Assembly: GCA_934695325.1 (NCBI GenBank)
Contig: CAKUVD010000001.1
Coordinates: 248,001-312,000 of the forward strand
Direction of reading: 5' to 3'
Length of the DNA stretch: 64,000 nucleotides
Origin: an uncultured Bacteroidales bacterium
GTDB taxonomy: Bacteria; Bacteroidota; Bacteroidia; Bacteroidales; UBA932
Of this stretch, positions 1,684 through 54,856 are shown in pieces (the first letter of the stretch is position 1; each line of letters opens with the position of its first letter). The position numbers were made by a program, and so were the translations under genes. Below the pieces are notes generated by a model. It saw only the letters and a program-made list of their open reading frames with translations. It did not search any database and was not told the origin of the DNA.

Positions 1684-1702
1684 GCGTAGGCTTCGCTGTT
1701 CT

Positions 1703-1728
1703 CCGGGCGGCGTCTGATGACGCCCGGG
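1703..1728. terminator. Hairpin between convergent transporter and aguB
   Basis: GC-rich inverted repeat (GGCGTC at 1709-1714, loop TGAT, GACGCC at 1719-1724, with CCGG flanks) in the 61-base gap between two convergent genes. No clear U-run follows on either strand, so it may be a weak bidirectional terminator. Confidence 0.35.
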
Positions 1729-1744
1729 GCTGGCCTGCGCCTGA

Positions 1745-2632: not shown

Positions 2633-2732
2633 ATTCTGTTTATTTAAGTAACCTCAAAAGATTTTTGAATTCCGTTCACCCACCCCTAGGCGAGTTTTCT
2701 AAGAAACAGCAGACACTGAGAGTCCTGAAAGA

Positions 2733-3776: not shown

Positions 3777-3802
3777 AAGTTCAATTCAATATAAAAGCCG
3801 AC

Positions 3803-3833
3803 AAATTTAGAATCTGTTTCCTTAAAAACAAAC
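3803..3833 (-). promoter_or_regulatory. Promoter of aguA-aguB
   Basis: On the minus strand, TTTG (3833-3830) is followed after exactly 19 bases by TAAATTTG (3810-3803). This matches the Bacteroidetes consensus (-33 TTTG, -7 TAnnTTTG) and sits just upstream of the aguA start. Confidence 0.75.
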
Positions 3834-3843
3834 ACCCGCGGCA

Positions 3844-4881: not shown

Positions 4882-5144
4882 TCCGCTATGCCGTTGGCCA
4901 TAAGGCTGTCGCAAAGTGCCGAAGAATCTCTCAGCGCCACCGCCTCATCTATCCCATAATGCTCCACAAGCAGCGCAGCGAGGCTTTCCGCTGTGAAGTC
5001 AGCGTTACCGACCTTTTCCAGCAGGAATGCCGCAGAATCATTGAGCCTCACTATCTTGGTGAGATTCACATTCCCTGCGCCCTCTCCCGAGAAAACCTTC
5101 TCGCCGCAGATCTCGCGGATCACAAAGCCATCCTTTATCTTCAT
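4878..5144 (-). CDS. PqqD-like peptide-recognition protein
   Basis: A small (88 aa) PqqD-family protein (PF05402), an all-winged-helix fold that binds leader peptides of ribosomally made, modified peptides. It shows the typical pattern: an N-terminal beta part with IVRLNDSAAFLLE, then helices with LAALLVEHYGIDEAVALRDSSALCDSLMANGI. The start chosen is ATG 5144 (MKIKDGF); a GTG at 5150 is the alternative. It is translationally coupled (ATGA) to the HprK-related kinase and divergent from the signal-peptidase-like gene. A PqqD protein alone has no catalytic role, so it should present a substrate peptide to the kinase or another partner; no precursor gene was found nearby. Confidence 0.8.
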   Translation of the reverse strand: MKIKDGFVIREICGEKVFSGEGAGNVNLTKIVRLNDSAAFLLEKVGNADFTAESLAALLVEHYGIDEAVALRDSSALCDSLMANGIAE

Positions 5145-5171
5145 TGTCACAGAATCTATTGGTTATCCGGG

Positions 5172-5179
5172 CAAAGGTA
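5172..5179 (-). promoter_or_regulatory. -7 box for PqqD/kinase operon
   Basis: TACCTTTG on the minus strand fits TAnnTTTG and lies 28 bases upstream of the PqqD-like start. No clear TTTG -33 box is seen; the upstream region is T-rich. Confidence 0.5.
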
Positions 5180-5192
5180 GCGAGTTTTTATG

Positions 5193-5200
5193 TATTTTTG
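5193..5200 (+). promoter_or_regulatory. -7 box for signal-peptidase-like gene
   Basis: TATTTTTG fits TAnnTTTG and lies 14 bases before the ATG at 5215. It is back to back with the divergent PqqD promoter in the 70-base intergenic space, which suggests shared control. Confidence 0.4.
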
Positions 5201-5214
5201 TAAAAAATTTGTCT

Positions 5215-5709
5215 ATGCACAGCGGCAACAGCGATGAAAATATGATTGTCGATAACGGCCAGTTCTTTTCGCAAGTCACCAGACTGCTGAAATCAGGACA
5301 TACTGTGACCATACCCGTCAAAGGATGCAGTATGCTTCCTTTCATCCGCGGAGACAGGGACGCCGTAGTGCTGGAAGGAATCGAAAGCGGCACTCCGGAA
5401 GGCAGGAAGAGAATCGAGGCCAAAGTCGGCGACATTGTCCTTTTTTTCTGCGACGGACGTCACATAATGCACAGAATCATCGCGACAGACGGAAACCGTC
5501 TCCGTATTCAGGGCGACGGCATCACAGTGGGAGAGGAGCATTGCCTGCGGAATGATGTCTGCGGAAAGGTCGTGACCATATTGAGGAGAAAGTCAATGCG
5601 GATAGATCCGTACTCCCCTAGGATGATGAGACGTCTCGCCGTATGGAATGCCCTCAAGCCAGTCAGACGCTATCTGCTCGCCATAATAAGGAGGCTGCCT
5701 ATATCATAA
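5215..5709 (+). CDS. S24/S26 signal-peptidase-like protein (Ser/His type)
   Basis: A 164-residue protein with the LexA/signal-peptidase fold signatures: KGCSMLPFIRGDRDAVV with Ser39 as probable nucleophile, VGDIVLF (box C-like), HIMHRIIATDG with His86, and the C-terminal ITVGEEHCLRNDVCGKV block. The HRI motif in place of a Lys-bearing one resembles SipW/archaeal/ER-type signal peptidases, which use Ser-His. No N-terminal membrane helix is obvious. ATG 5215 is preceded by a promoter-like box; ATG 5242 is an alternative start. It lies divergent from the PqqD/kinase pair and its 3' end overlaps the ABC gene by 6 bases on opposite strands. It may cleave a leader from the cassette's unknown peptide (inference). 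Confidence 0.7.
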   Translation: MHSGNSDENMIVDNGQFFSQVTRLLKSGHTVTIPVKGCSMLPFIRGDRDAVVLEGIESGTPEGRKRIEAKVGDIVLFFCDGRHIMHRIIATDGNRLRIQGDGITVGEEHCLRNDVCGKVVTILRRKSMRIDPYSPRMMRRLAVWNALKPVRRYLLAIIRRLPIS

Positions 5710-7317
5710 TCTCAGCACAGCATCACAATAGCGCTCCACAGCATCCCTGTGCGTTATAAATATCATTGTCTTGCCCTGACTTGCCGCAGTGAGATTACGC
5801 AGCATACGCACTTCCGTTTCAGGGTCAAGTGACGAACTGAGTTCATCCAGGAGCATTATGCTGCCCGGACGGAGCAATCCCCTCGCTATGGCTATTCTCT
5901 GCGCCTGACCCTCGCTCAGCCCAGCGCCAAGTTCTCCGCACCTCGTGTCCAGACCGTCAGGCAGATCGCGGACGAATTCAGCGGCCGCAATATCCAGGAC
6001 TTCCCACATCCTCTTCTCGTCCGCATCCCGGTCGCCCATAAGGAGATTGTCCCTTATCGTTCCGCTGAACAATGTATTTCCTTGAGGCACATAGATGATG
6101 TTCGCTCGTGTAGAGGGGGACGCTTCCACGCTGGAACTGCCTGAATACAGTTCCACGGAACCGCTGTCAGGCCGGAGCAGCGAGAGAACCAGGCGTATCA
6201 TCGTAGTCTTCCCCACGCCCGTATGTCCGACTACCGCAGTCCTGGCGCCCGGCTTGAAATCATAGCTGAAGTGGCTGAATACAGGACTGTCCGATCCAGG
6301 ATATGTGAAGGACAAGTCCACGATCCGTATTCCGACCGGTGAAGGAAGCATTGACGAGCCCGTCTCCTCCATCTCGACATTCTCCAGGTCCATCAGCCGG
6401 TCTATCGACGCCGCGGCATAGACGAATCCGGACATCTGCCTTGCCAATGTCATTGACGGCCCCTGGATCTGACCGACCAGCTGGAGGAAAGCGGTGAGCA
6501 TACCGAAAGTCATCGCCCCGTCGGCGATTCCGGTGACGCCCCAGAGCAATGCCACTGAATAGCCGGCCCCGAATGCCACGCTTATGGAAGAGCGGGAAAA
6601 GACATTGAACCCTGTACGTTCCCTCACACGCACATACTCATTGTCCTGAAGTCTCTGCAGCCGTGTCTCCATTTCGCCCTCCAGTTCCATCGACTGGATG
6701 ACCGTCCTATGCTGGACCGACTCCTGGATACGGCTCTGGACCAAGCCCTCGGCCTCTCGAATGTGCCTCGTCAGTTTCCGCATACGCCTGAAGAACAACT
6801 TACTGAACAGCGCGAAAAGCGGAGTCATTAGAAGCAGGGCCACAGCGAGCCTCCAATCCATCGTGCACAGGAACGTGAACGCCGCCACTAATTGCACAGA
6901 CGTGGAGACCGCCGACGGAATATCCTGACAGACAGTCCCGGCGACCGTGTCAATGTCTGAGAAGAGCCTGTTCACGGCATCGCCGCTGTGCATTCTCTCA
7001 ATGCCTTGCCACTTTGCCCGCAGAAGCCTTCTGTATAGGTTCTGTCTGAAGATGAAAGCCATCTTATATCGGGAATTGTTTTCGACCGACGTGCGTACAG
7101 CATTGACAGCCACCCGCAATAGCATCGCGGCTACCAGCACGCAGCCGTATCTGGCGACAGACCCTTCGCAGGTACCTGTGGCGATGTCCACGAGCCTTTT
7201 GCTTACCCAGATGAACCACAGATTCAAGCCAATGCTGATACAGCAGAGGAAGATGTTCACGGTGACAGCGATGCGAGACTCACCCGACCTGTCCCAAAGC
7301 CATTTTATATATTTCAT
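5704..7317 (-). CDS. ABC exporter, fused permease and ATPase
   Basis: A 537-residue half-transporter of the MsbA/peptide-exporter type: an N-terminal membrane domain of about six helices (residues ~15-300) followed by a nucleotide-binding domain. The ATPase motifs are intact: Walker A GHTGVGKTTM, signature LSEGQAQRIAIARG (LSEGQ in place of LSGGQ), Walker B IMLLDELSSSLD and the H-loop FITHRD. There is no N-terminal C39 peptidase domain, so any leader removal would need a separate protease such as the adjacent S26-like protein. Its context with PqqD-like and HprK-like genes suggests export of a modified peptide; lipid or drug export cannot be excluded. Confidence 0.85.
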   Translation of the reverse strand: MKYIKWLWDRSGESRIAVTVNIFLCCISIGLNLWFIWVSKRLVDIATGTCEGSVARYGCVLVAAMLLRVAVNAVRTSVENNSRYKMAFIFRQNLYRRLLRAKWQGIERMHSGDAVNRLFSDIDTVAGTVCQDIPSAVSTSVQLVAAFTFLCTMDWRLAVALLLMTPLFALFSKLFFRRMRKLTRHIREAEGLVQSRIQESVQHRTVIQSMELEGEMETRLQRLQDNEYVRVRERTGFNVFSRSSISVAFGAGYSVALLWGVTGIADGAMTFGMLTAFLQLVGQIQGPSMTLARQMSGFVYAAASIDRLMDLENVEMEETGSSMLPSPVGIRIVDLSFTYPGSDSPVFSHFSYDFKPGARTAVVGHTGVGKTTMIRLVLSLLRPDSGSVELYSGSSSVEASPSTRANIIYVPQGNTLFSGTIRDNLLMGDRDADEKRMWEVLDIAAAEFVRDLPDGLDTRCGELGAGLSEGQAQRIAIARGLLRPGSIMLLDELSSSLDPETEVRMLRNLTAASQGKTMIFITHRDAVERYCDAVLRL

Positions 7318-8596: not shown

Positions 8597-10060
8597 TCAG
8601 AACTCCGACGGAGTGACTCCGAACATCTCCTTGAAGCACTTCGTGAAATAGCCCGGAGTGGAGAAGCCCACAGAGTAGGCGACCTCACTGACAGTATAGC
8701 CACCTCGCTTGAGCATAGCCGCAGCCTTGCGCAGACGGAACGTACGCATAAGATCCGTTGGCGCAATTCCATACATATCGTGAATCTTGCGGTACAGATG
8801 CACCCTTGACATTCCGAGGGCCTCGCTCATAGACTCCACAGTGAAGTCAGACTTGTCATAAGAATGTTCCATTATGTCGAACAGCCTGTCCTTGAACAGA
8901 TCGTCGGCACACGGCTTCGTAAACTGCTCAAGTTTCTGGTTCACAAGCACCTCCAACTCCGCATTGCGCTTCCTTATCCTGGAATTGGCTACAAAAGCAA
9001 GCGTCGCCACGACCAGCAAGACCAGCACAAAAAAAATCATCAGTATCAAGACATTCCTGGCCGAGCGGTAACCGGTGTCAAGCGCATCTAGTTCCTTTTT
9101 CTGGGCATTGATACGGTTCTGATAGTCAAGCATCTGATCCGACTGAGCCTTTATCGTCTCGGCATTCGTTGAATCCACGATAAAAGAGCGTAGGATATAG
9201 TTCCGTTCAACAGGCTTGCCGCCCAGAATCTTCATAGCAGTCTCTGTCACGAACTCTCCGCCAGGAGGATAGAGGAACGAGGCATCGAGGCGCCCGTCAA
9301 TCACTGCATCCACGCCCACGATTGCATCCACCCCGATGAAACGGATTCTTCGCGCATCAGCAAGACTTCGCTCGCTGATTCCCTCGTAAGCAGCAAGCGC
9401 CATATCATCATTATGTGCAAAGACTAGGTCAATGCTGGAGTAATCCTGGATATCCCTGACCTTGGACTTAGTAGCCGCCGATAGCCAATCACCCCAAATG
9501 CTGCGCACACGATAATCGCCATTCACGACATCCATAAACCCTTTGTGCCGTTCCTGTGCCGGAGACGAGCCGCGTAGCCCCTGAATCTCGAGGACTGAAC
9601 TTCCCGGAGGAAAATGCGAACGGATATAGTTTCCGACACTGCGACCGATAGAATAATTGTCCGCCCCGATATAGGCCGTATATTCATCCGACAGAATCTT
9701 CCTGTCCCAGATTATCGTCGGGATTCCGCTTCTGTAAGCCTCGACAGCTATTGGGGTTATCGGTTCCGATTCATTCGGAGAGATGATCAGCAGATCGACC
9801 TTCTGCTCCATAAGTTCACGTATCTGGCGTATCTGAGTCTCAGTATCGTTGTGAGCCTCCCGGATCAACAGCGTAAGATTCGGATACTTGGAGACTTCAG
9901 ACTCCATCTGTATCATCATAATCTGACGCCACCTGTCATCAGCGGACTGTGAAAAACCTATGGTATACCTAGAAACGGCATCAGTGCGCTCCGCACAGAA
10001 AGCGGAACACACTGAGACCATAATGAAAAATATCGCCGAAAATATTCTACTTGACTTCAT
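8597..10060 (-). CDS. Membrane-spanning regulator: periplasmic sugar-binding domain fused to AraC HTH
   Basis: A 487-residue protein with signal peptide (to about residue 23), a type I periplasmic-binding domain (about 30-305; TIGFSQSADDRWRQ, DLLIISPNESEPITPIA, IPTIIWDRKI, YIGADNYSIGR), one transmembrane helix (about 335-360, LILMIFFVLVLLVVATLAF), and a C-terminal AraC/XylS HTH domain (about 385-487, ending FGVTPSEF). The sensor resembles that of the Bacteroides fructan hybrid system BT1754, which binds fructose. Unlike hybrid two-component systems it has no histidine kinase or receiver, so it would signal through the membrane directly, ToxR-style. It overlaps the preceding lipoprotein gene by 14 bases and ends the sugar operon it presumably controls. 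Confidence 0.85.
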   Translation of the reverse strand: MKSSRIFSAIFFIMVSVCSAFCAERTDAVSRYTIGFSQSADDRWRQIMMIQMESEVSKYPNLTLLIREAHNDTETQIRQIRELMEQKVDLLIISPNESEPITPIAVEAYRSGIPTIIWDRKILSDEYTAYIGADNYSIGRSVGNYIRSHFPPGSSVLEIQGLRGSSPAQERHKGFMDVVNGDYRVRSIWGDWLSAATKSKVRDIQDYSSIDLVFAHNDDMALAAYEGISERSLADARRIRFIGVDAIVGVDAVIDGRLDASFLYPPGGEFVTETAMKILGGKPVERNYILRSFIVDSTNAETIKAQSDQMLDYQNRINAQKKELDALDTGYRSARNVLILMIFFVLVLLVVATLAFVANSRIRKRNAELEVLVNQKLEQFTKPCADDLFKDRLFDIMEHSYDKSDFTVESMSEALGMSRVHLYRKIHDMYGIAPTDLMRTFRLRKAAAMLKRGGYTVSEVAYSVGFSTPGYFTKCFKEMFGVTPSEF

Positions 10061-11498
10061 TTGCTATGAACGTGACAGCATTATTGCCGACTGATACGAT
10101 GGACGGCGAAGAGTACGATGACGTCCCGTCAAGAAGGAGGACTTTCTCACCTGACCACTCTCCTTCCGGCAGACCGGCATCCCTGTAAACAAGCCCTCCA
10201 GTAGTGCTTGAACGATAGATTGCCATATATGTATAGCGTGAAGCGTTATATACGACGCTCATATCATCCACTGGCCCATAGAATATCGGCGCCGCGGCTT
10301 CCTCGTCACCTTTCACCCACTCTGCACCGTCCCAGTACTCGTACTCGGAATATGAAGTCACATTTCCGGAAGCGACTCTGGCCACGTATGCCATAGCGTT
10401 GCGGTCTCCTGCCGCAGAACCGAACATATAGACATAGTTTCCATTTAGCATATATGAAGCCCTCACGAAATTGCCGTCAGCTTTCCACTGGGCGTCGGCC
10501 TTGCTCCAGTTCTGACCGTCAGCAGACACCGCCAGGCCGGCCTCGGATGCAGTCCAGTCAGACTCCTCATCTACAGCTGCCACCGGTTTGTAGTAACGCA
10601 ACGCCTTGACACCGCCTGCAGAGACTCCTGATGTCGGTACGCAACCCTCGGCGAATATCGGCCCAGTGACTACTGTGACGAATTTCAGGCCGTCGGAGGC
10701 AGCACCCTTCGTATGTGCATATACACCGGATACCTTCTTTCCGTCAGCAGTCTCAGCATCTGAAAGCACAGCGGACACAGTGCCGTCAGCCTCATTCCAA
10801 GCCACGATCTTGCCGAACGACTTGAGTTCCGTGAAAGAAGCGTTTGTTGCAGTCGTAGAGACGGTGCGCACATTCTCAGGAACGAATGTGTCATTGTTGG
10901 ACCCGGTCGGAACGACTTTTACGTCATCAAGTTCGAGCCAGAGATTGTCCCAGCACCAGCCTCCGAAGAAAGCGTCGGCCTTGGTGTCATCGACATTGTC
11001 CAGAGTATAGCTGTAATCTTTCCACTCGGATCCTATTCCCTCCTGGTTCAGGTTCACGTCGTGTCCGGCAGTTCCACGGAAGCCCATATAGCAGTTAAGG
11101 CCGTCCCAGGCGCCGCGGTAGCTCAGGGTCAGAGTATAAGATGTATTTTTCTTCAGGCAGACGCTCTGCACTGCGACATCCCTCCAGTCGTGGGTGTTGC
11201 AGTCAGCGTGAAGTGTCCTCGAGCCTGTCAGCGAAGTCTCGGCCTCGCCGACCCATTCAGGAAGATACCACAGAGACTTCGACTTCCAGTTCTCGTCGCC
11301 GGAAAAGCGTTCAAAGCCACCATCGGTGAGCATATTGAAGCCGTCCTTGTCAATGGCGATGTCAGCCTTGACGAGATTCACGGAAAGTTGTGTCGGGTTA
11401 GGATTTTCCTTTTCAGAAGAGCCGCCGTTGTCCTTTGAGCAGGCGACGAGTGACAATGCAGCAAAAGCCGCGATAATAGAATTGTAATTTTTCATCAT
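10047..11498 (-). CDS. Surface glycan-binding lipoprotein: CBM-like domain plus degenerate DUF4185 domain
   Basis: About 483 residues. The lipoprotein signal (MMKNYNSIIAAFAALSLVAC) fixes the start at 11498 or 11495; a longer upstream start would run into the previous gene. Residues ~45-195 form a beta-sandwich carbohydrate-binding-like region (LTDGGFERFSG to ELDDVKVVP). Residues ~200-483 align with the DUF4185 protein encoded just upstream: DGNFVRASYMLNGNYVYMFG versus TGNFVQVAFLKQDGMLYMFG, and VYRDAGLPEGEWSGEKV versus VYRDASSPEGEWSEEKI. The paralogue's STDYG and FGDNF segments, conserved in DUF4185, are replaced here by SFG and LSDAE, so one acidic residue appears lost. I read it as a SusE/SusF-position binding protein derived from an enzyme. 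Confidence 0.7.
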   Translation of the reverse strand: MMKNYNSIIAAFAALSLVACSKDNGGSSEKENPNPTQLSVNLVKADIAIDKDGFNMLTDGGFERFSGDENWKSKSLWYLPEWVGEAETSLTGSRTLHADCNTHDWRDVAVQSVCLKKNTSYTLTLSYRGAWDGLNCYMGFRGTAGHDVNLNQEGIGSEWKDYSYTLDNVDDTKADAFFGGWCWDNLWLELDDVKVVPTGSNNDTFVPENVRTVSTTATNASFTELKSFGKIVAWNEADGTVSAVLSDAETADGKKVSGVYAHTKGAASDGLKFVTVVTGPIFAEGCVPTSGVSAGGVKALRYYKPVAAVDEESDWTASEAGLAVSADGQNWSKADAQWKADGNFVRASYMLNGNYVYMFGSAAGDRNAMAYVARVASGNVTSYSEYEYWDGAEWVKGDEEAAAPIFYGPVDDMSVVYNASRYTYMAIYRSSTTGGLVYRDAGLPEGEWSGEKVLLLDGTSSYSSPSIVSVGNNAVTFIANEVK

Positions 11499-11526
11499 CA
11501 CTGTTTTTATGTGGATTAGTTGATAA

Positions 11527-13140
11527 TTATTTCTTTGGCGCAAGACTTATGTCATCTACCGTGACAGAAAGCCCCTCAGCGCCCCAGGTTCCGAAAAACA
11601 CGTCAAGAGAGGAACAGTCCCCGGAATTAAACTCAACGGAAATCTTCTCCCATTCATCGGATTTCAGCTGAGGATTCGCATCGAAAATGCGTCCGTCCGG
11701 GAGGCGCACACCGAGATATGAGAGAGAACTGCCGGAGACGGAGGACTTAGCCCACCCGCACACTACATAATCAGTATTCTTATGGACATTTATGGTCTGT
11801 ACGCAGGCATCCTTCCAGGCTCCGCTTTCATTGTTGAGCAGCCTGCAGGCAATCTTCCCACTATGTGCATCCCTTGTGGAAGTCGAGTTCTCGATGTTCT
11901 TCCACAACGTCCTGTATGCTATAGGTTTGTTTGGGTCATTCTCGAAACCGCCTTCCCATACCATATTGAATCCGCCTTCCAGTTCACGTAATTTAGCGTG
12001 CCACAGATGTATATGCCAAGTGTCATAGCCTTTTCCAGAAGGCGTCACGCTCGACACCACATACCACAGGTCACGCCCGTTGCAGAACCACGGATGGATA
12101 TACGGCCCATAGCCATCCTCTGCGATGATCTTCTCTTCAGACCATTCCCCTTCCGGAGACGATGCGTCACGATATACAAGCTTTCGCTGATTCACGGAAA
12201 GATACATCATTATATATCTCTTATAATAAGTATTGTACTGTACAGTCATCTCTGAGACAGTTCCGTTAGCGACAGGTACGGCCTCTGACTCGGATGCCGC
12301 CCAAGAGCCTCCGTCCCAATACTTCCACGACGACTTGTCCAGGATGCTGTCGAAAGTTGTCCGTGCCAGATATACGCTTCCTTTTCTGCCGGCCCTCGTC
12401 CCGAACATATACAACATACCATCCTGTTTCAAGAATGCGACCTGGACGAAATTACCAGTGCCGTCCCATTTCACTCCGGAGCGAGTCCACGTCTTGCCAT
12501 AATCATCCGTATAGACTATCTCGCTGTAATTCGCCGTCCAGACATCATTGCCGTCCACAGCCCATCTGTTCACGCTCATATAGCTGACATACTGACGGTT
12601 GCCGCTTCCGTGCGGTATGGATGTGCCTGCCGTCGGAATACAGGTTGTCTCGTGCTCGGCATCATCGGGATATTGCCCCGTCTTTGCACGCGATACGACA
12701 AACTCCATCCTGCTTCCGTCCTGCGCACGCAGCATATCATCATAATAGAGCCCGTCTGAGAGGTCTCGGTCAGTAGAGAATGCTATCGCATTTGACTTCC
12801 AGTCTCCATTGCGGTCGTTGAAATTGTCCCCGAACATACACCAGAGCTGCCCGTTTCCGGCATCCCACATATTGCCGTAGTCTGTCGAAGCCATATTGAA
12901 CCGCTTCAGCGTGGCATTCGGGTTCGGAAGGTTCTCTCCAGATGGAGTGTTTCCGATGACCCGGGCCACACACTCGGCATTTACTGCCTCAAGTGAAGCC
13001 ACTGTCTCGCCTCCCTCTTTTTCAGGGAATTCACCTTCCCCGGAAGGCGGCGTCACGACCGGAAGCTCAGATCTCGTGCAAGAGAATGAAAAGATAGCAG
13101 CCAGCGCAGTTGCGGCAATACAATATAATCTCAGTTTCAT
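11527..13140 (-). CDS. DUF4185 (GH183-type) lipoprotein with C-terminal CBM-like domain
   Basis: 537 residues; lipoprotein signal MKLRLYCIAATALAAIFSFSC. The DUF4185 beta-propeller (about 50-395) shows the family hallmarks STDYGNMWD and WCMFGDNFNDRNG with two Asp 18 residues apart, then YSEIVYTDDYGKTW, and MFGTRAGRKGSVYLAR. Residues ~400-537 are a beta-sandwich CBM-like region (MVWEGGFENDPN to SVTVDDISLAPKK). DUF4185 members were recently shown to include endo-D-arabinanases, family GH183. It sits directly after SusD, the usual place for a surface endo-enzyme or glycan-binding lipoprotein. With GH172 encoded upstream it suggests attack on an arabinan- or fructofuranan-like polymer; activity is inferred. 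Confidence 0.75.
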   Translation of the reverse strand: MKLRLYCIAATALAAIFSFSCTRSELPVVTPPSGEGEFPEKEGGETVASLEAVNAECVARVIGNTPSGENLPNPNATLKRFNMASTDYGNMWDAGNGQLWCMFGDNFNDRNGDWKSNAIAFSTDRDLSDGLYYDDMLRAQDGSRMEFVVSRAKTGQYPDDAEHETTCIPTAGTSIPHGSGNRQYVSYMSVNRWAVDGNDVWTANYSEIVYTDDYGKTWTRSGVKWDGTGNFVQVAFLKQDGMLYMFGTRAGRKGSVYLARTTFDSILDKSSWKYWDGGSWAASESEAVPVANGTVSEMTVQYNTYYKRYIMMYLSVNQRKLVYRDASSPEGEWSEEKIIAEDGYGPYIHPWFCNGRDLWYVVSSVTPSGKGYDTWHIHLWHAKLRELEGGFNMVWEGGFENDPNKPIAYRTLWKNIENSTSTRDAHSGKIACRLLNNESGAWKDACVQTINVHKNTDYVVCGWAKSSVSGSSLSYLGVRLPDGRIFDANPQLKSDEWEKISVEFNSGDCSSLDVFFGTWGAEGLSVTVDDISLAPKK

Positions 13141-13151
13141 ACTCTTACGGA

Positions 13152-14756
13152 TTACATAGGGTAGCCATCATTCTGTCCGAGCTTCGGATTTGAGAGCCTT
13201 TCGACCTCAGGAATCGGGAAGAGCTCGAGATGATTGTCGTTTTTCGGGGTGTGGCCCCACCAAGTGCCAGTGGTATAGAGGCCGAAACGTATCAGTTGCT
13301 CACGACGCATTCCTTCCCCCGTGAACTCGCGTCCAAGTTCGTTCAGGAACTCACCATACTTCACCTCGACGCCGTCCACTTTCACAGTAGCCTTCAGCTG
13401 CTCCGCAGTAAGACAGCGCTTTTCCTCCGGGAGAGACTGGTCAAACGAGCGCTTTCTGACCTCATTGACAATGTCAGCCGCATCGGCGGCGTCGCCGTTC
13501 CGGAGCAAGCATTCCGCCTTCATCATCATTGTCTCTCCGAGTCTGTAGACTACCCAGTCCTGGTCGGTCTCCCATTTCTGTCCTATCTTGATCTCGTATT
13601 TCCCGTACCTGTAGCCGTCGAACTCATTGGCTGCCGTAGGACTGGCGATATAGTTTATATGGTTGTACGGTATTCCGTTGAGATACAGAGGCTCTTTGGT
13701 CACATAGTCATATTGCTGCCCCATAAGGTAGGAATCCTTATAGCGCCTGTCCGTCCAGGAGATACAGTTATGTGTGACAGGGTCTTCATCTGCGTCGAAA
13801 GTGTCAGCTACGTACGACGGATTGGCTCTGAGGCCGTTGTAGCCGGCGGAAGCGGCATTATATACAGGCTTTCCTGCCCAGTGCATTGTCTTGGCATAGA
13901 TAAAATGCAGAATCGGGGTTTTCGTAGTCTCGTCGTACGGAATCGCAAAGATGATCTCCGGAGAATTCTCGTTATCAAGACTGAATATGTGCGAGAACGT
14001 TCCGTCCAGCGAATATCTGCCGGAGCCAAGAATCTCATCGCAGAGGATTATCGTGCTGTCACGTTTGGCTGCGTATTCTGGGCCAAGCCAGGATTCTGCA
14101 TTGAGATAGACTCTCGCAAGCATCTGCTTCGCCGCCCATTTGTTGAAACGGCTGTATGTCTTTTCCTCCGTGAGCTTGTCCATATTGTCGCGAATTTCTC
14201 TGACGACGAAATCATATACCTCCTTTCTCGTCTTGCTCTCCGGCATATAGCCCTTAGGAACATCGTAAGTCGTCTCTATCGGGACATTTCCGTAAAGGGA
14301 GAGAAGATGGTAATAGTAGTGCGCCCTGGCCACCTTGATCTCCGCAACAGTCGCTTCGTCAAGCTTTACGCCGGCCTCGTCCAGTTGGTAAAGCACACGG
14401 TTGCAGCAGGATGAGATGCCGTACCACAGGTGATTCCATACATTGCTGAAATGAGGGTCGTTCACGAGCCACTCGTGTTTGTTGAGCCTCTGCCAGATAC
14501 CGTTGTCGTTCCATCCTCCGTCAGTGTTTATCGGAACCACCCACGCATCCGTGCCCAACTCATATAGATCCAGAACGCTGCGGTCTTCGTTGAACCAGCG
14601 CATCTGTCCATAGACAGGCGCAAGCATATAGCCGGAGTTCTCGTCGGCGTTCTGCATCAACTGATCCATCGTGATGCTGCTATAGACCACGGGGTCAAGA
14701 TTCGTGCAGGCAATGCAGCACAGGGCTGCAGCAAAAGATATGACTGTCCTTTTCAT
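13152..14756 (-). CDS. SusD/RagB-family surface glycan-binding lipoprotein
   Basis: 534 residues with lipoprotein signal (MKRTVISFAAALCCIAC). The SusD-like alpha-helical TPR scaffold is visible in the N-terminal half (HYYYHLLSLYGNVPIETTYDVP, NKWAAKQMLARVYLNAE) and the conserved C-terminal RagB/SusD block carries RREQLIRFGLYTTG and LFPIPEVERLSNPKLGQNDGYP. SusD lids the paired SusC channel and captures oligosaccharide at the cell surface. It begins 5 bases after the SusC stop, as is usual. The locus content suggests a furanoside oligomer as ligand. Confidence 0.95.
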   Translation of the reverse strand: MKRTVISFAAALCCIACTNLDPVVYSSITMDQLMQNADENSGYMLAPVYGQMRWFNEDRSVLDLYELGTDAWVVPINTDGGWNDNGIWQRLNKHEWLVNDPHFSNVWNHLWYGISSCCNRVLYQLDEAGVKLDEATVAEIKVARAHYYYHLLSLYGNVPIETTYDVPKGYMPESKTRKEVYDFVVREIRDNMDKLTEEKTYSRFNKWAAKQMLARVYLNAESWLGPEYAAKRDSTIILCDEILGSGRYSLDGTFSHIFSLDNENSPEIIFAIPYDETTKTPILHFIYAKTMHWAGKPVYNAASAGYNGLRANPSYVADTFDADEDPVTHNCISWTDRRYKDSYLMGQQYDYVTKEPLYLNGIPYNHINYIASPTAANEFDGYRYGKYEIKIGQKWETDQDWVVYRLGETMMMKAECLLRNGDAADAADIVNEVRKRSFDQSLPEEKRCLTAEQLKATVKVDGVEVKYGEFLNELGREFTGEGMRREQLIRFGLYTTGTWWGHTPKNDNHLELFPIPEVERLSNPKLGQNDGYPM

Positions 14757-14761
14757 TTTCC

Positions 14762-17665
14762 TCAGAATTTAAGATTAAGACCGAATGTGAATGAACGCAG
14801 TGTCGGGTATTTCTCGTATGAATCCACGCCTGGAGTAAGTCCTGTGATCGGGACAGCCTCCGGGTCTAGCCCGCTGTACTTTGTCATCGTAAAGAGGTTC
14901 TGTCCGGCGAAATATACTCTTACGCTGTTTATGTAGCGAACTTTCGGGAATGTGAACGTATGGCCAAGAGTGACATTATCAACTTTCATATAATTTCCGT
15001 TCTCTATATAACGGTCGCAATAAGTCGAAGGAGCATAGTTGTACCAGTCACCGACTTTCTTGAAAGCCGACTTAGGGACATTCACTGAAGAGAGCCAAGC
15101 AAGTGTCTCATACTTCATTCTGTACTGGTTCAGAATCTGGTACAGGAACGCTCCGTGCATTGACACAGTAAAATCAAGGCCCTTCCATCGGAGAGTGGTG
15201 CTGACAGCTGCGAACATCTTAGGCATTCCGTTTCCGAGCACTGTCTTCTGATCTTCTCCGGCAGTGGAGTTCTCGGCGCCCTTTATCCTCCAAGCCGTTC
15301 CGTTGTTCTTGAGTCCTACAGTCTCCCAGCCGTAGAAGTTGCCTATCGACCAGCCTTCCTCGAGACGGTGAGAATATGTCTGGACGTGATCAAGCCATCC
15401 GAGGTTCAGATATTCAAGAGTATAGACATCGTTGGAGAGCCTCTCAAGCTTGTTCTTGTTGTAGGAGACGTTTCCTCCGATTGTCCAAGTGAAATTCTTT
15501 TTCTGGAGCAGCACTCCGTTGAGAGAGAGTTCCACGCCCTTGTTGCTGATGGCACCGACATTGGCAAGCATAGAACTTGCGATATTAGGTGGCATCGGGA
15601 CGGTATATGTGTAGAGCAGATCCTTAGTGTAGCGGTAATATCCGTCAATGGAGCCCGAGAGGCGGCCGCCGAGGAACGAGAAATCCAGGCCCACATTGGT
15701 CTCGTGCTTCTCCTCCCACTTCAAGTCGTCGTTAGGATTGTTTGCAGGGATAATGCCGCTGACCCACTTGCCGTCCACGTAAGACATATATGAGTTATTG
15801 AAATCATACAGAGCAATATACTGGTACGGAGCGGACGGCTCGGTACCGGTTACACCATAGCCCGCACGGAGTTTCAGTTCGTCAATCCATCTGACAGACT
15901 TCATCCACTCTTCGTTCTTGATACGCCAACCGGCGCTCACTGACGGGAACCATCCCCAGCGGTTGTTTTTTCCGAACTTGTCACTGCCCTCATAACGTGC
16001 GCTGACCATCAGAAGGTAACGTTCCGCATAATTGTAGTTCACACGGCCATAGAATCCTATCAGCTTACGTTCAGTCTTCTGGCTGTAAAGGCTTGACAGG
16101 CCGTTTCTGGTCGATTCGGCAGAGCCGATGTTCCAGGCCCCGAATCCGTCCACCGGGAAATCGAAGGCATACATCTTCCAGTTCTGCCAGACGTATCTGT
16201 TCCAGCTGTAGCCGAGAGTCGTGGAAATAGAATGGCTGCCGAAAGACTTGGACCAGTCGGCCTGAAGTTCGAGAGTCCTGTCGTCCCCGTGCCCACCGGA
16301 AAGGGTTGCGCTTCCGTTCTCGCTTCCCATCACTGCATTGTACGCCTTATGAGTCGATATCCACTCGTATTCGTTGTAGTCGTTCTGATATGCCCCTGTG
16401 GCGCTCAACTTGAGATCCCGGACCGGTTCCACGACAATCTTCGCACTGAGTGCCAACTGATTGTACTTGTTCACGCCTTTATACTCGTTGAGCAGTTCCA
16501 CAGGATTGGCCCCGTTGCTATTCTCATAATAAGAGCCGTCCTCATTATATATAGGAGTCGTCGGATTTCTGAGCACTGCCGTGGAGTAGAGTTCGTCAGC
16601 AGCATTGCCTCGCCTTGCAGCACGGTCATTGACATTGAAAATGAGTTTCAGACGGTCGTCGAACATCGAGTGGTTGATCGAGACTTTTGCCGCAAGAGAT
16701 TTCTGGAACGAGGTCTTGTAAAGCCCCTGACGGTCGTCATAGGTGAGCGATGCCACATATCCGGTTCTGCCGGTACCTCCTCGCGCCGACACATAATGGC
16801 TGTGGCTGAACGGCACTCGCGTGATTTCCTTGACCCAGTCGGTCGAGCTGCCATAATCGTTGATCGCCGAGAACTCCGACCGTTCCTTGAGCGTGCGGAG
16901 TTCATCAGCCGTATAGCAGCCGTCGTCGCGAATCCGCTGATCCACTTTCACCCTGGCATCATATTCAAGAGTCATCGCACCCTCCTTCGGGCGACGTGTC
17001 GTTATAAGTATGACACCATTAGTGCCCCTGGTTCCGTAAATCGCAGCGGCGGAACCGTCCTTGAGCACATCAATGCTCTCGATATCCTCAGGTGCAATGG
17101 AATTGAGAGAACCGCCGACAATGCCGTCAATCACTATGAGAGGTGATGATGAAGCAGCAAGCGTAGAGATGCCTCGGAGCTGTACGCTCACGTCTCCGGC
17201 AGGATCCCCGCTCGTATTGGAGATTCCCAGTCCGGCCACCTTGCCCTGAAGCAGCTGCATCGGAGAACTGACGCCTCCCTGGACGAAGTCTTCTGACTTC
17301 ACGCGAGTGACAGATGATGTGATTTCCTCACGCTTGACCGTGCCGTAACCGATGACGACAAGTTCGTCCATCAGCATAGCGTCCGGTTCAAGAATAACAT
17401 TCATCTCAGTTCCGCTGACTTTTTGCGTCAATGTCTTGAAACCCATAAATGAATACGAAAGAGTCGAGCCTACCTCGGACGTTATCTCATATTTTCCGTC
17501 CACGTCTGTATTCACCCCGGTCTTTGAGGCATTGTCCACGACATACGCTCCTGCGACAGGAGTTCCAGTATTATCGACGACTGTCCCTCGGACAGTGGTT
17601 TTCTGCGCAAAAGCCGTTATGCAGGCCAGCAGCAGGTATATGATTATTGACAGTATCTTTTTCAT
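14762..17665 (-). CDS. SusC/RagA-family TonB-dependent outer-membrane transporter
   Basis: 967 residues. Signal peptide MKKILSIIIYLLLACITAFA, then a carboxypeptidase-regulatory-like beta-sandwich (VRGTVVDNTGTPVAGAYVV), the SusC hallmark DELVVIGYGTVKREEITSSV, a plug domain (LIVIDGIVG, DVLKDGSAAAIYGTRGTNGVILITT) and a beta-barrel ending in aromatic FGLNLKF. It imports oligosaccharides delivered by SusD, powered by TonB. Its start is 102 bases downstream of the GH172 stop and no -7 box was found there, so transcription may continue from the MFS gene. There is no STN signalling domain, which fits regulation by the sugar-binding AraC protein and not by an ECF sigma/anti-sigma pair. Confidence 0.97.
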   Translation of the reverse strand: MKKILSIIIYLLLACITAFAQKTTVRGTVVDNTGTPVAGAYVVDNASKTGVNTDVDGKYEITSEVGSTLSYSFMGFKTLTQKVSGTEMNVILEPDAMLMDELVVIGYGTVKREEITSSVTRVKSEDFVQGGVSSPMQLLQGKVAGLGISNTSGDPAGDVSVQLRGISTLAASSSPLIVIDGIVGGSLNSIAPEDIESIDVLKDGSAAAIYGTRGTNGVILITTRRPKEGAMTLEYDARVKVDQRIRDDGCYTADELRTLKERSEFSAINDYGSSTDWVKEITRVPFSHSHYVSARGGTGRTGYVASLTYDDRQGLYKTSFQKSLAAKVSINHSMFDDRLKLIFNVNDRAARRGNAADELYSTAVLRNPTTPIYNEDGSYYENSNGANPVELLNEYKGVNKYNQLALSAKIVVEPVRDLKLSATGAYQNDYNEYEWISTHKAYNAVMGSENGSATLSGGHGDDRTLELQADWSKSFGSHSISTTLGYSWNRYVWQNWKMYAFDFPVDGFGAWNIGSAESTRNGLSSLYSQKTERKLIGFYGRVNYNYAERYLLMVSARYEGSDKFGKNNRWGWFPSVSAGWRIKNEEWMKSVRWIDELKLRAGYGVTGTEPSAPYQYIALYDFNNSYMSYVDGKWVSGIIPANNPNDDLKWEEKHETNVGLDFSFLGGRLSGSIDGYYRYTKDLLYTYTVPMPPNIASSMLANVGAISNKGVELSLNGVLLQKKNFTWTIGGNVSYNKNKLERLSNDVYTLEYLNLGWLDHVQTYSHRLEEGWSIGNFYGWETVGLKNNGTAWRIKGAENSTAGEDQKTVLGNGMPKMFAAVSTTLRWKGLDFTVSMHGAFLYQILNQYRMKYETLAWLSSVNVPKSAFKKVGDWYNYAPSTYCDRYIENGNYMKVDNVTLGHTFTFPKVRYINSVRVYFAGQNLFTMTKYSGLDPEAVPITGLTPGVDSYEKYPTLRSFTFGLNLKF

Positions 17666-17767
17666 TGTTCTATATTTATCAACATTGTTTCCGGCGTCTA
17701 CGTATCACAGCACTCCCTTCAGGAATGACAAGCCTTTCACGCCAGGCCTCAGGTTCATACCCAATAT

Positions 17768-19330
17768 TCATCTGGCGTCAGCTACAGTGTCCGTATCTCC
17801 GTACCAGAATGAAACAGTATGATAATCGACTGTCCCCGGATTCCAGCTGAGCATCTCTATGTCATAGCGGAAACGCCTGGCGAACGGAATGACGTCGAGA
17901 TTACGAGTACGTAGGTAAGCATTGTAGCCGTGCGATGAAAGTTCGTCAGCGCGCGGAGCGCCGCCATAAGGTGTCAAGAATGGAACCACCGGAGCCCACG
18001 AGCAGTTATAATAGTCCTCCGTGCCAGTTCCAAAATGAGACGGGAAACTGTCATCGTCAATCCAGATTTTCTCGTCGCCTTCCCCATACCAGTCAATGCA
18101 GTGATTGTAGAGGCTGAGCAGGTCACCGCAATACACGCCACGGCCATTTATAGTAGTAAAGTTCCAGTCCAGATTGTCATTGGAGTCATATTGGTTGCTT
18201 TCAGGAATGCCATCCTCATAGTGTCCGCTGCAGTGAAAATACATAGAGTTCCTCGTCCAGTCGTAGTTTCCCGGCGTCACGTACATATCGACAGAGACCG
18301 TGTCCTCTCCTTCATTAGTGATAAAAATCTCACCGCCTTCACGATACGGCATCACCCAGCGGCAGGCCGCCTTTCCCTGATGATTGGCAAGCCACCATCC
18401 ATCGACATCCGGAGCGCCGAAGCCGGCCCCGAAGAACTCCGACAGGACAGCGTCAATGCACTTGGCACCGTCAAAGGAGCCATTTACACGTAGGCTTTCC
18501 ATAGCCCGACTATAGCCGGCACTACCGGACACTTCCACATTTATTCCACGGATTGCGGCAGGACCTTCAGGTAGTTTCAGTTCAAGACGCCCTCCGGGAG
18601 CAAGTTCGCCGGACGCTGTGAGACGGTCACCCGCCGCATCTGCAGGATGGAGCAGGAGGTCGCTCACCTCACGCATTTTCGGCAGCAGCCTCTCAGCCTC
18701 CGCCTGTGTATATGTACGGACTTTCGTCCCCGGCTCATACGCCCTCCAGTTTATGTGAAAATATCGCGGACTGTCAGCATCCGGCGTCTCCTCCTCGAAA
18801 GTGACACGGCATCCTTTCGCGAACGGTATAGGAAGAAAGAAGGTATTTCCTCCGACCCCGTCAATGCTCTCTTCGTAATGAGTGTGCGTAAGTGACAATG
18901 CTTCCGGCACGTCAAGCGGGAAACGCTTCATATCATATGCTGGAACCGTTATCCCAGGTTCATCCTCGCCATCGAAATAAAAACGCATCGTGCCCCTCTT
19001 GCCTTTAGTAGTCATCCATATACGGTCTATGGCTCCAGGGCCGTTCCATTCCATCATAACTTTCTCAATGCGTCCAGCTATGGTGTCGAGACGCTCGTAT
19101 CCTGTCCAATCACGGTTAGCGAACCAGCCTGAGGAATCTGGAGAGACAGAGCGACGGTCATAACTGCTCGCCTGTCTCTGCGACCAGAAATGCTCGGGAA
19201 AATATGTCACGGCGTCTCGGGAGACCATCTCGTCAAGAAGAGTCTCCATCGTGACTTCAGCAGAGCCGGAGCAGGATGCCGACCCGACAGCGGCAATCAG
19301 GACAGCCGCATATCCAAAGATTCTTTTCAT
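17768..19330 (-). CDS. DUF2961 / GH172 family glycoside hydrolase (lipoprotein)
   Basis: 520 residues; lipoprotein signal MKRIFGYAAVLIAAVGSASC. DUF2961 features are MMEWNGPGAIDRIWMTT, LRFYFDGE-like MRFYFDGEDEPGI, FFLPIPFAKGCRVTFEE and the hallmark DDDSFPSHFGTGTEDYYN. GH172 includes alpha-D-fructofuranosidase/difructose dianhydride I enzyme from Bifidobacterium and exo-alpha-D-arabinofuranosidases from D-arabinan degraders. The Glu of YGEGDE and the Glu of GTGTED are 21 residues apart, the same spacing as the two catalytic glutamates I recall for the characterised enzyme (270 and 291). It lies 9 bases after the fructokinase gene. It probably releases the monosaccharide from non-reducing ends in the periplasm or at the surface. 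Confidence 0.85.
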   Translation of the reverse strand: MKRIFGYAAVLIAAVGSASCSGSAEVTMETLLDEMVSRDAVTYFPEHFWSQRQASSYDRRSVSPDSSGWFANRDWTGYERLDTIAGRIEKVMMEWNGPGAIDRIWMTTKGKRGTMRFYFDGEDEPGITVPAYDMKRFPLDVPEALSLTHTHYEESIDGVGGNTFFLPIPFAKGCRVTFEEETPDADSPRYFHINWRAYEPGTKVRTYTQAEAERLLPKMREVSDLLLHPADAAGDRLTASGELAPGGRLELKLPEGPAAIRGINVEVSGSAGYSRAMESLRVNGSFDGAKCIDAVLSEFFGAGFGAPDVDGWWLANHQGKAACRWVMPYREGGEIFITNEGEDTVSVDMYVTPGNYDWTRNSMYFHCSGHYEDGIPESNQYDSNDNLDWNFTTINGRGVYCGDLLSLYNHCIDWYGEGDEKIWIDDDSFPSHFGTGTEDYYNCSWAPVVPFLTPYGGAPRADELSSHGYNAYLRTRNLDVIPFARRFRYDIEMLSWNPGTVDYHTVSFWYGDTDTVADAR

Positions 19331-19339
19331 ATCTAGTGT

Positions 19340-20212
19340 CTATTTATTATATGGTTGCCTTTTATGCCAGGCTCCGGACTTCGTACATACGTATGCGGCC
19401 GTATCGACAGCCTCCCTATGCGCCTGCCGTATGTCCAGACCACGAAGAAGTCCCGAAATCAGGGTCCCAGTAAACGAGTCACCGGCGCCGATTGCATCTT
19501 CCACAGCAACCTTCGGCGTCGGTATCTCAGAAACCTTGCCCTCCGGCGTGTATATCGAGCTATAATGCTCCCCTGCGGTAAGCACAAGCATACGAAGGCC
19601 ATAATCCGATATGAATCTCGCAGCGATGTCGTCCTCGCCCATACCCGAAAATCCGAAGAGCTCTTTAAGGAGAGACATCTCGTCATTATTAATCTTGAAT
19701 ACGTTAGCCATACAGAGAGACTCTTCGATCAGTTCTTTCGACCAGAATTTCTGACGCAGGTTAATGTCATATACCTTCCAAGCGGATTCCGGAGCGGCTT
19801 CGAGAAGAGCCTTGGTCGTAGCACGTGATACAGGGCAGCGCTGGGCAAGAGTACCGAACGTGATGGCGGAAGCCGCCGACGCTTTCTTCTTCAGCTCATC
19901 AGTGAGAGGAATGTGATCCCACGCGACGTTCTCACGGATATGAAAGTCCGGCTGCCCGTCATTCAGCAGCACATCAACGGTTCCCGTAGGCCAGTCCACT
20001 TCGGCGACAAGAAGCCGTATGCCGTTTTCACGGGCCGCGGCAAGCAGTTCTCGTCCGAGTTCATCCTTGCCTACAGCACTTACGGCCCAGCCTTCCACAT
20101 CATCACAGGATGCGTGGTAAGCGAAGTTCACTGGGGCGCCTCCGGCCCGCTTTCCAGTCGGAGTGACATCCCAGAGGAACTCCCCGACACCTATTACTGT
20201 CTTTTTTTCCAT
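19340..20212 (-). CDS. PfkB-family sugar kinase, probably fructokinase
   Basis: About 290 residues starting MEKKTVIGVGEFLWD at ATG 20212; an in-frame start at 20242 would overlap the MFS gene and adds only a low-complexity leader. PfkB signatures are GGAPVNFAYHASC (sugar-binding), DINLRQKFW, LVLTAGEHYSSI and the C-terminal DAIGAGDSFTGTLISGLLRG with the catalytic Asp of GAGDSF. The sequence closely follows the Bacteroides ScrK-like fructokinases that accompany fructan loci (GEALWDVLPEGKKIGGAPANFAYH-like start). It should phosphorylate the imported ketose, giving fructose-6-phosphate if the substrate is fructose. Position between porter and hydrolase supports direct metabolic coupling. Confidence 0.88.
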   Translation of the reverse strand: MEKKTVIGVGEFLWDVTPTGKRAGGAPVNFAYHASCDDVEGWAVSAVGKDELGRELLAAARENGIRLLVAEVDWPTGTVDVLLNDGQPDFHIRENVAWDHIPLTDELKKKASAASAITFGTLAQRCPVSRATTKALLEAAPESAWKVYDINLRQKFWSKELIEESLCMANVFKINNDEMSLLKELFGFSGMGEDDIAARFISDYGLRMLVLTAGEHYSSIYTPEGKVSEIPTPKVAVEDAIGAGDSFTGTLISGLLRGLDIRQAHREAVDTAAYVCTKSGAWHKRQPYNK

Positions 20213-20225
20213 ATCATTCAATGTT

Positions 20226-21467
20226 TTAGAGTTCAAGTTCACGCTCTATGTCCTCAAGTTTCTTGCCCTTTGTCTCAGGGATGAAGAAATGTATGAACAA
20301 TCCAGCCAGGAGGCAAAAGACTGCAAAGATCCCGAACGTCACGTTCACTCCGAGCGTGCTCTCCATCCACGGATAGAACTGAACGACAATGAATGCGCAA
20401 ACCCAGCTGATTCCCGTCGAAAGCGCCATCGCAGTTCCTCTTATATGTGAAGGGTACATTTCGGACGTGACGACGAACATAAGCGGCGAGAGGGACAGTG
20501 CGAAAAATGCGATATATGCAAGAATCGCAACGAGAATCCCGACATTGCTAGGATTGTCAATGGAGAATGAGTATGTGAGGTAACCAAGCGAGACGACAAG
20601 ACCTGCACAACCGCTTACCAGCAGGGTTTTGCGGCCGAACTTGTCACACAGCCAGAGGGCTATGACAGTGAAAAGCAGATTGGCGGATCCTACGAACACA
20701 GTCTGGAGCATAGGGTCGCTGCCTGCGATGCCGACCTTCCCGAGTATTCCCGGGGCATAATTGATGACCACATTTATACCTGTAATCTGCTGAAAGAACG
20801 CCAACATACATCCGAGAAAGACCACTTTGGCCATCTTTCCCTTGAAAAGTTCCGAGAGACTCGCTCCTGCCTGACGTGTCTGATTTCTATGGGCGAGCCA
20901 GAGCGGACTCTCGGGAAGAATGAACAGAAAGATGATGTCGATGAGAGCGAATGTGAGAGGAAAACCGAGCATATAGTGCCAGTTTCCGTCAATATCGGCC
21001 AAAAAATAGTTGGCGACATATGCGGCAAGTATTCCGATCACCACGAAGAGCTGATAGAGAGATACGAGCGTGCCGCGCATCTTCTCCGGGGAGATTTCCG
21101 TTATATATGTAGGAATGACCGCAGAAAGCACCCCTACACCTAACCCTCCTATGAAGCGGAAAGCGACAAGAGCGATGGCCCCGTGCGAAAGCAATGAACA
21201 TCCGGCCGCTGAGACTGCAAGCAGTATGGCGGATATCGTCATCAGGGGACGACGCCCGAATCGGTCGCTAAACCGTCCGCCAGTCAGAGCACCGACAAGA
21301 CACCCGACCATAAGGGCGCTCGCCACAAGTCCCTTCGCAAGCGAGGACAATGCAAATTCTTTTTCAATGATGTCAATTGCCCCGGACATTCCGCCGAGGT
21401 TGAGCCCAACAACAAGAGCTCCGAATGCAGCCAAAAAGGCGTAAAGGATAACTTCAGATTTTTTCAT
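20226..21467 (-). CDS. MFS sugar porter
   Basis: 413 residues, twelve predicted membrane helices, sugar-porter family. Signature motifs are GGRFSDRFGRRPLM between helices 2 and 3, PESPLWLAHRNQ after helix 6, QQITGINVVINYAP in helix 7, DKFGRKTLL and the terminal PETKGKKLEDIE. It should carry a monosaccharide into the cytoplasm by proton symport, feeding the kinase encoded 13 bases downstream. Bacteroides fructan loci use a comparable fructose importer next to their fructokinase. It is the first gene of the minus-strand sugar operon and has a repeat-bearing upstream region. Confidence 0.92.
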   Translation of the reverse strand: MKKSEVILYAFLAAFGALVVGLNLGGMSGAIDIIEKEFALSSLAKGLVASALMVGCLVGALTGGRFSDRFGRRPLMTISAILLAVSAAGCSLLSHGAIALVAFRFIGGLGVGVLSAVIPTYITEISPEKMRGTLVSLYQLFVVIGILAAYVANYFLADIDGNWHYMLGFPLTFALIDIIFLFILPESPLWLAHRNQTRQAGASLSELFKGKMAKVVFLGCMLAFFQQITGINVVINYAPGILGKVGIAGSDPMLQTVFVGSANLLFTVIALWLCDKFGRKTLLVSGCAGLVVSLGYLTYSFSIDNPSNVGILVAILAYIAFFALSLSPLMFVVTSEMYPSHIRGTAMALSTGISWVCAFIVVQFYPWMESTLGVNVTFGIFAVFCLLAGLFIHFFIPETKGKKLEDIERELEL

Positions 21468-43107: not shown

Positions 43108-43149
43108 CCATAGAGTAATACGTTTTTACATATCCGATTGATAATAGCC

Positions 43150-43157
43150 TACATTTG
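43150..43157 (+). promoter_or_regulatory. -7 box upstream of the second SusC gene
   Basis: TACATTTG fits TAnnTTTG, 60 bases before the SusC ATG; the -33 region is only T-rich (TTTTTA at 43123-43128). A 6-bp inverted repeat (GAAGCT/AGCTTC, 43168-43187) lies in the leader. Weak -33 plus distance suit activator (HTCS)-dependent control. Confidence 0.5.
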
Positions 43158-43216
43158 AAGTACCCGAGAAGCTCGCCAATCAGCTTCACGAATTAGTACA
43201 CTAAAAAAATCGGACT

Positions 43217-46198: not shown

Positions 46199-46219
46199 TA
46201 ACACTAACTCGACATCAAG

Positions 46220-47692: not shown

Positions 47693-47718
47693 TAATCATT
47701 TTGAAGTAAAAACTGAAT

Positions 47719-49611: not shown

Positions 49612-49630
49612 CTGACTAAAAAGGACAATT

Positions 49631-51505: not shown

Positions 51506-51518
51506 GAACAACATTGAT

Positions 51519-54851: not shown

Positions 54852-54856
54852 CTGAT

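Follow-up and report, generated by a model that had tools for sequence, protein, structure and literature searches.

A Bacteroidales polysaccharide-utilisation locus combining GH183 and GH172 proteins, with fructose as its most likely product

Results and discussion

Gene content of the locus

The DNA analysed here is a stretch of 64,000 nucleotides from an uncultured Bacteroidales bacterium (assembly GCA_934695325.1, contig CAKUVD010000001.1, positions 248,001 to 312,000; hereafter the window). A minus-strand run of eight open reading frames (ORFs), extending from position 21467 down to 8597, encodes a sugar porter, a PfkB kinase, a GH172 protein, a SusC/SusD pair, two GH183 (DUF4185) proteins that we call GH183a and GH183b, and a one-piece sensor-regulator (Table 1). 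The gaps between these genes, in transcription order, are 13, 9, 102, 5, 11, 31 and -14 nucleotides, and such short distances make it likely that all eight belong to one operon. Beyond it lies a divergent RelA/SpoT gene, which begins at position 21772. A SusC gene adjoining a SusD gene, together with glycan enzymes and a sensor-regulator, is the make-up of a Bacteroidota polysaccharide-utilisation locus, and this one most likely delivers fructose, a reading to which we give a probability of roughly 0.55.

A first-pass annotation made from the sequence had listed the same eight genes and assigned two of the families as GH172 and DUF4185/GH183. The list agrees with the ORF coordinates and with Pfam and NCBIfam profiles, and both family assignments hold in profile searches as well as in the catalytic residues described below. 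It had also remarked that the locus has no GH32 enzyme and no arabinose isomerase; tblastn searches of the window, with two GH32 queries and one query each for FucI and FGGY, indeed gave no match, so that the GH32 enzyme by which a fructan locus is recognised was not found here. A frameshift at the end of the GH172 gene, suspected from a leftover frame before SusC, was discounted, since the ends of nine close homologues fall at nearly the same point.

Table 1. Genes of the minus-strand run, in order of transcription, with the profile matches on which their naming rests. The start of the kinase was set at the ATG at position 20212; the CBM_4_9 match in GH183a is barely above the Pfam cut-off (CBM, carbohydrate-binding module; HTH, helix-turn-helix).
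Feature	Position in window	Strand	Profile match
MFS sugar porter, first gene of the operon	20226..21467	-	Pfam Sugar_tr 1.3e-100; NCBIfam TIGR00879 2.6e-96
PfkB sugar kinase	19340..20212	-	Pfam PfkB 1.1e-30
GH172 (DUF2961), 520 amino acids, probably a lipoprotein	17768..19330	-	PF11175 3.6e-56
SusC-like TonB-dependent outer-membrane importer	14762..17665	-	NCBIfam TIGR04056 6.9e-219; Pfam TonB/SusC
SusD-like surface lipoprotein	13152..14756	-	SusD_RagB 2.5e-22
GH183a, DUF4185 enzyme with complete catalytic residues and a C-terminal CBM-like domain	11527..13140	-	DUF4185 7.3e-80
GH183b, N-terminal CBM-like domain and degenerate GH183 propeller	10047..11495	-	DUF4185 1.1e-31
One-piece sensor-regulator, Peripla_BP_4 and AraC HTH, 487 amino acids	8597..10060	-	Pfam

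Conservation and comparison with D-arabinan loci

With the GH172 protein as query, a collection holding one genome per species yielded 15 loci. Matches to GH183a (E up to 1e-60) were found in 2 of 268, 3 of 398 and 1 of 251 genomes of three families, and all six of these genomes carry the same block, which argues that the arrangement is not due to chance. In the resulting seven loci, the window included (window-type loci), genes for the MFS porter, PfkB, GH172, SusC, SusD and GH183a are present throughout (in one locus, L038, the PfkB frame comes out as a piece of 191 amino acids, yet tblastn covers 283 residues). A GH183b-type gene is present in six, the exception being the locus of the isolate Mucilaginibacter limnophilus (L002), which has two GH183a-type genes and a different PfkB, 30% identical to that of the window and with fructokinase as its best NCBIfam match (87 bits, where the cut-off is 450). 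Six also carry a sensor of the BT1754 type, described below, the contig of the seventh (L014, 11 kb) ending before that point. None of the seven gave a tblastn match to FucI, FGGY or GH32 with queries drawn from loci L008, L010, L047 and L052. In one of these relatives, extra long GH183b-like (778 amino acids) and GH183a-like (784 amino acids) proteins adjoin the core set (L037, positions 1174-5875).

SusC, GH172 and GH183, and with them an endo- and an exo-acting furanosidase, are common to the window, to PUL42 of Dysgonomonas gadei and to three stretches with GH183s of other type (L052, L092 and L094). PUL42 carries a predicted fucose isomerase, which on D-arabinan was reported to exceed all other carbohydrate enzymes in abundance (PMC10115798), and the three stretches carry FucI and an FGGY kinase, whereas the window has PfkB, a porter and a fructose-type sensor instead. 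The genes of L052, which comes from a genome of the family Dysgonomonadaceae, encode SusC, GH183, GH172, GH43, FucI and an FGGY kinase. The D-arabinan cluster of Microbacterium arabinogalactanolyticum, which encodes EndoMA1 and ExoMA1, likewise joins GH183 to GH172 but, unlike the window, has an ABC transporter, GH116, an isomerase and a kinase (PMC10509167).

One alternative to the fructose reading is an ordinary D-arabinan locus served by an isomerase and a ribulokinase that are encoded at another place in the genome. A fucose-type isomerase does occur outside the locus in three of the six other locus-bearing genomes (GH32 lies elsewhere in two of the six), and two of the five other-type GH183 stretches (L086/L087 and L100) also show neither FucI nor FGGY within the fetched DNA. 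Nevertheless, FucI was not found in the remaining three genomes, G002, G573 and G630 (draft assemblies, with FucI as the sole isomerase family sought), both FucI and FGGY stand beside GH183 in the other three of the five stretches, and the fructose-type kinase and sensor would be left unexplained. We regard this alternative as improbable, and as the least likely of those weighed here.

The two GH183 proteins

The closest solved relative of GH183a is EndoMA1 (8hhv; E 5e-61 across residues 73-534). Equivalents of its D33, D51, E243, W138, R198 and Y293 are all kept, as expected of a GH183 enzyme, and among 65 window-type GH183a sequences D33, D51, R198, E243 and Y293 are invariant and W138 is present in 64. 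None of the five EndoMA1 CBM ligand residues that were checked is kept in the window protein. The window-type sequences form a single branch (support 100/100), set apart from 25 comparators (EndoMA1, the GH183 of L052 and 23 database relatives, most of them named Nocardia) by three alignment columns. Column 52, beside the acid/base, is Asn in all 65 but Thr or Ser in all 25 (Thr in L052); column 263 is Arg in all 65 and in none of the 25; and column 316 is Trp in 64, with one Tyr, against Tyr in 25/25. Five further GH183s from a scan of the genus Bacteroides have Thr52 and Tyr316, so the split does not follow phylum.

GH183b departs from the catalytic set, with Gly in place of D33 and Asp in place of both E243 and R198; by fixed spacing, an Asp falls at the place of D51. 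Fixed spacing also finds both catalytic Asp together in 0 of the 30 readable rows among 48 GH183b rows, in which the window protein is counted twice. A gap at D51 in 46/46 GH183b rows was discarded as an alignment artefact. As the equivalents of the GH183 nucleophile, Arg198 and Glu243 are lost, GH183b is probably a non-catalytic, surface glycan-binding lipoprotein, and the earlier view of both DUF4185 proteins as enzymes is not supported.

GH172 and its relatives in fructan loci

A fold search with a model of the GH172 protein returned GH172 structures as its seven best chains (E up to 3.3e-12; next 5.7e-6), with 4kq7, 8ah3, 8ic8 and 7v1v first, as expected of the double jelly roll of this family. 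Both catalytic glutamates (Glu270 and Glu291 of alphaFFase1) align in the window protein, and the pair is invariant in all 34 alignment rows, as E417 and E438. Eight places after the nucleophile Glu (Glu+8), a position that we take to be that of Cys304 in BACUNI_00161, all seven window-type loci have Ala, as do 116 of the 117 readable sequences among the 120 closest GH172 homologues; DgGH172c and BACUNI_00161 have Cys, as does the GH172 of L052. At this position, Gly299 of the fructose enzyme is described as admitting fructose and Asn253 of the arabinose enzyme as blocking it (PMC10509167), and Cys304 was judged to clash (PMC8605356). The window has neither the Gly of the alpha-D-fructofuranosidase nor the Asn or Cys seen in D-arabinofuranosidases that have been assayed.

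When 26 GH172s are placed in a tree, the window protein falls among 24 rows that include all 9 GH32-linked ones (100/100), while the FucI-linked GH172 of L052 falls outside. GH183-linked and GH32-linked kinds are interleaved on this tree, the GH183-linked label requiring at least four changes. Members of the same clade, 45-51% identical, lie inside GH32 fructan loci of Bacteroides salyersiae, B. nordii and others, several of which also carry DUF4960, MFS_1 and fructokinase. Bacteroides fructan loci (for example L008 of B. salyersiae) resemble the window in their fructokinase-type PfkB, their SusCD and their same-clade GH172; they differ in carrying GH32, often with DUF4960 and an MFS_1 porter, none of which was matched in the window, where GH183 is present instead. 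A fructo-oligosaccharide locus of B. uniformis similarly holds four GH32 and a GH172 (PMC9905522).

The link between Glu+8 and neighbouring genes was surveyed in 99 genomes, 17 of which gave 43 GH172 sites, 30 readable by motif and 13 not, with flanks of about 10 kb or less, so that genes further off fall outside the counts. The readable sites comprise 8 with Ala, 11 with Cys, 5 with Asn, 4 with Gly and 2 with Tyr. GH32 lies near five of the eight Ala sites and near none of the 22 others (Fisher p 0.0004, a value that overstates independence because near-kin genomes are included), and FucI near none of the eight and near four of the 22 (three Asn, one Cys). Two further GH32 matches beside Cys-type GH172s (L093 and L102) covered 149 residues and proved by Pfam to be GH116, with no GH32; they were dropped, and keeping them would give 2/22 and p 0.007. 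That Glu+8 by itself sorts loci by sugar is too strong a claim, given the Gly sites without GH32, and clade and residue are here relied on jointly.

In Bacteroides-genus genomes, GH116 proteins lie near Cys-type GH172s (L093 1-2586; L102 2279-5257). Since the exo-beta-D-arabinofuranosidase of the actinobacterial D-arabinan cluster is a GH116 enzyme, these may be D-arabinan loci. GH172-like proteins in which Glu+8 is Tyr and the loop differs (GTGTEDYYSFDGYFK) appear to represent a further GH172 type (L104 8981; L106 8835). A Prevotella stretch (L005 381-14180) combines a window-type porter, PfkB and an Ala-type GH172 with GH97 and SusCD, and gave no GH32 or GH183 match.

The first-pass annotation had left the substrate as either D-arabinan or an unusual alpha-D-fructofuranose polymer or oligomer. 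Of these the fructose side is favoured by the GH172 clade, the Glu+8 residue and the lack of a FucI match, and the clade and residue splits weaken D-arabinan as the simple reading without removing it. D-arabinose is an analogue of fructose without the C1 hydroxymethyl, and KdsD, an isomerase of the 3-deoxy-D-manno-octulosonate (KDO) pathway, converts D-arabinose 5-phosphate to ribulose 5-phosphate. A D-arabinan locus could hence manage without an isomerase of its own, if its sensor and kinase had been retuned from fructose to D-arabinose and the kinase made D-arabinose 5-phosphate. Such a locus would account for the D-arabinanase catalytic residues of GH183a and for FucI not being found, but would leave unexplained a GH172 that sits in the GH32-linked clade with Ala rather than Asn or Cys, and a GH183a whose columns 52 and 316 are unlike those of all 30 distinct comparators (25 + 5). 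We consider it unlikely, although it is the strongest of the alternatives.

Kinase, porter and sensor-regulator

The best solved relative of the kinase is 2qhp, entitled 'Fructokinase' and presumably BT1757 (E 6.1e-79), with a lead of about 200 bits over the runner-up (7.4e-18), and the protein is 47% identical to the kinase of the B. salyersiae fructan locus. NCBIfam profiles give an ambiguous ranking, in which KDG/KDGal kinase comes first (77 bits) and 5-dehydro-2-deoxygluconokinase (73) also precedes fructokinase, which takes fourth place at 60 bits; every score is far below its cut-off (450 for fructokinase). A kinase tree held no starred fork and was dropped as evidence. The similarity to 2qhp and to the B. 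salyersiae kinase supports a fructokinase-type enzyme, predicted to phosphorylate fructose. The porter belongs to the sugar-porter family (TIGR00879), whereas the B. salyersiae fructan locus has one of the MFS_1 type, and the proposal that the window porter is of the usual fructan-locus type is not supported; yet a locus with an Ala-type GH172 and a Pfam-confirmed GH32 (L103) has a porter 52% identical to that of the window.

The sensor domain is closest, among solved structures, to 2x7x (E 3.5e-63, 217 bits; next 1.9e-25, 93 bits), which we take to be the domain of the fructose sensor BT1754. Its identity to 2x7x is 39.9%, compared with 28.4% to the YtfQ-like binding protein 6hyh, and domains of the same type are found in the fructan loci L004, L010, L046 and L049. 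Among known hybrid sensors with this type of domain, BT1754 is described as alone in sensing a monomer, fructose (PMC3878776), and arabinose, its form unstated, is reported not to have induced the BT1754 locus (PMC3404733). The fructan-like character first proposed for kinase and sensor is therefore upheld by their nearest structures, but not by the NCBIfam ranking of the kinase.

Like BT1754, the window regulator joins a periplasmic Peripla_BP_4 sensor domain to an AraC output; a signal peptide and a membrane helix are assigned to it by eye. It differs from the BT1754 hybrid in that Pfam matches neither a histidine kinase nor a receiver. Sensors of 903-921 amino acids occur in five kin loci, with kinase and receiver found by Pfam in four (L002, L036, L037 and L038) and read by eye in the fifth, and alignment with these hybrids shows that the window protein lacks the stretch between membrane linker and AraC domain. 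A Prevotella GH172/GH32 locus encodes a regulator of like domain make-up (L011 8063-9670, 535 amino acids), its sensor 46% identical to BT1754. Both proteins may be one-component transcription factors of the membrane that arose from hybrid two-component systems.

The kinase ranking leaves some room for another ketofuranose or furanose glycan (of tagatose, psicose, xylulose or ribofuranose), or for another sugar served by PfkB, with fructose-type relatives recruited to it. Such a sugar would be in keeping with the two profiles placed above fructokinase, albeit below cut-off, whereas the solved structures single out a fructokinase and a fructose sensor, and the GH172 clade sits with GH32. We hold this to be rather improbable, less so than an isomerase located elsewhere.

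Proposed pathway and weighing of the evidence

Besides the grounds given with GH172, fructose is favoured over D-arabinan by the nearest solved relatives of the sensor and of the kinase, by the fructokinase match of the different Mucilaginibacter PfkB, by the separate GH183a clade with its Asn52, Arg263 and Trp316, and by the contrast between the seven window-type loci, none with a FucI or FGGY match, and the other-type GH183 stretches, three of five with both. In the pathway that we propose, GH183b and SusD would bind a furanoside glycan on the cell surface, where GH183a would cleave it within the chain, at a fructofuranosyl and perhaps alpha linkage. The fragments would be imported by SusC and trimmed by a periplasmic GH172, which would release terminal fructofuranosyl residues as fructose. 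The MFS porter would then carry fructose into the cytoplasm for conversion to a fructose phosphate by the PfkB kinase, and the one-piece sensor would bind periplasmic fructose and switch the operon on.

If fructose is the harvested sugar, a fructoside-cutting GH183 follows, which is a prediction of this analysis and not one of its results. We tentatively propose, at somewhat less than even odds, that the window-type GH183 clade consists of endo-fructofuranosidases that would act with a GH172 fructofuranosidase, under a one-piece fructose sensor, on an alpha-type-linked fructose polymer or oligomer unserved by GH32.

Several observations weigh against fructose. We know of no GH183 that cuts fructosides and of no natural polymer of alpha-fructofuranose. 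GH183a shares all catalytic and several contact residues with an enzyme proven to be an endo-D-arabinanase. The Ala at Glu+8 differs from the Gly of the fructose enzyme, GH32 is missing from the stretches around three of the eight Ala sites, and the four Gly sites have neither GH32 nor FucI nearby. Identity to BT1754 is 37-42% for the six window-type sensors, compared with 44-60% for four fructan-locus sensors. The NCBIfam ranking of the kinase and the FucI genes elsewhere in three kin genomes point the same way. In the accessible parts of the literature on GH172/GH183, DUF2961/DUF4185, GH183 polysaccharide-utilisation loci and GH172/GH32, no report of a fructose-linked GH183 was found, nor anything clear on alpha-fructofuranosyl polysaccharides.

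Should the prediction be true, the GH183 family, known as endo-D-arabinanases and with active members described in the accessible parts of two reports as cutting D-arabinan, would gain a second activity, and an overlooked fructose-containing glycan would be indicated. A clade wired to fructose-type genes would also caution against reading each gut GH183/GH172 locus as a degrader of mycobacterial arabinan, and GH183 columns 52 and 316, together with the GH172 clade, offer markers for sorting such loci.

Neighbouring genes

Beyond the RelA/SpoT gene, the minus strand encodes a 682-amino-acid HSP90-family protein (24442-26490), with no evident link to the operon. A second glycan-type locus occupies positions 38003-57507 of the plus strand. 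It contains a hybrid two-component regulator (39154-43107) and an ORF of 993 amino acids that is likely a SusC (43217-46198), and it also encodes SusD, BNR-repeat, fimbrillin-like, DUF5107-TPR, cellulase-like and DUF4886 proteins.

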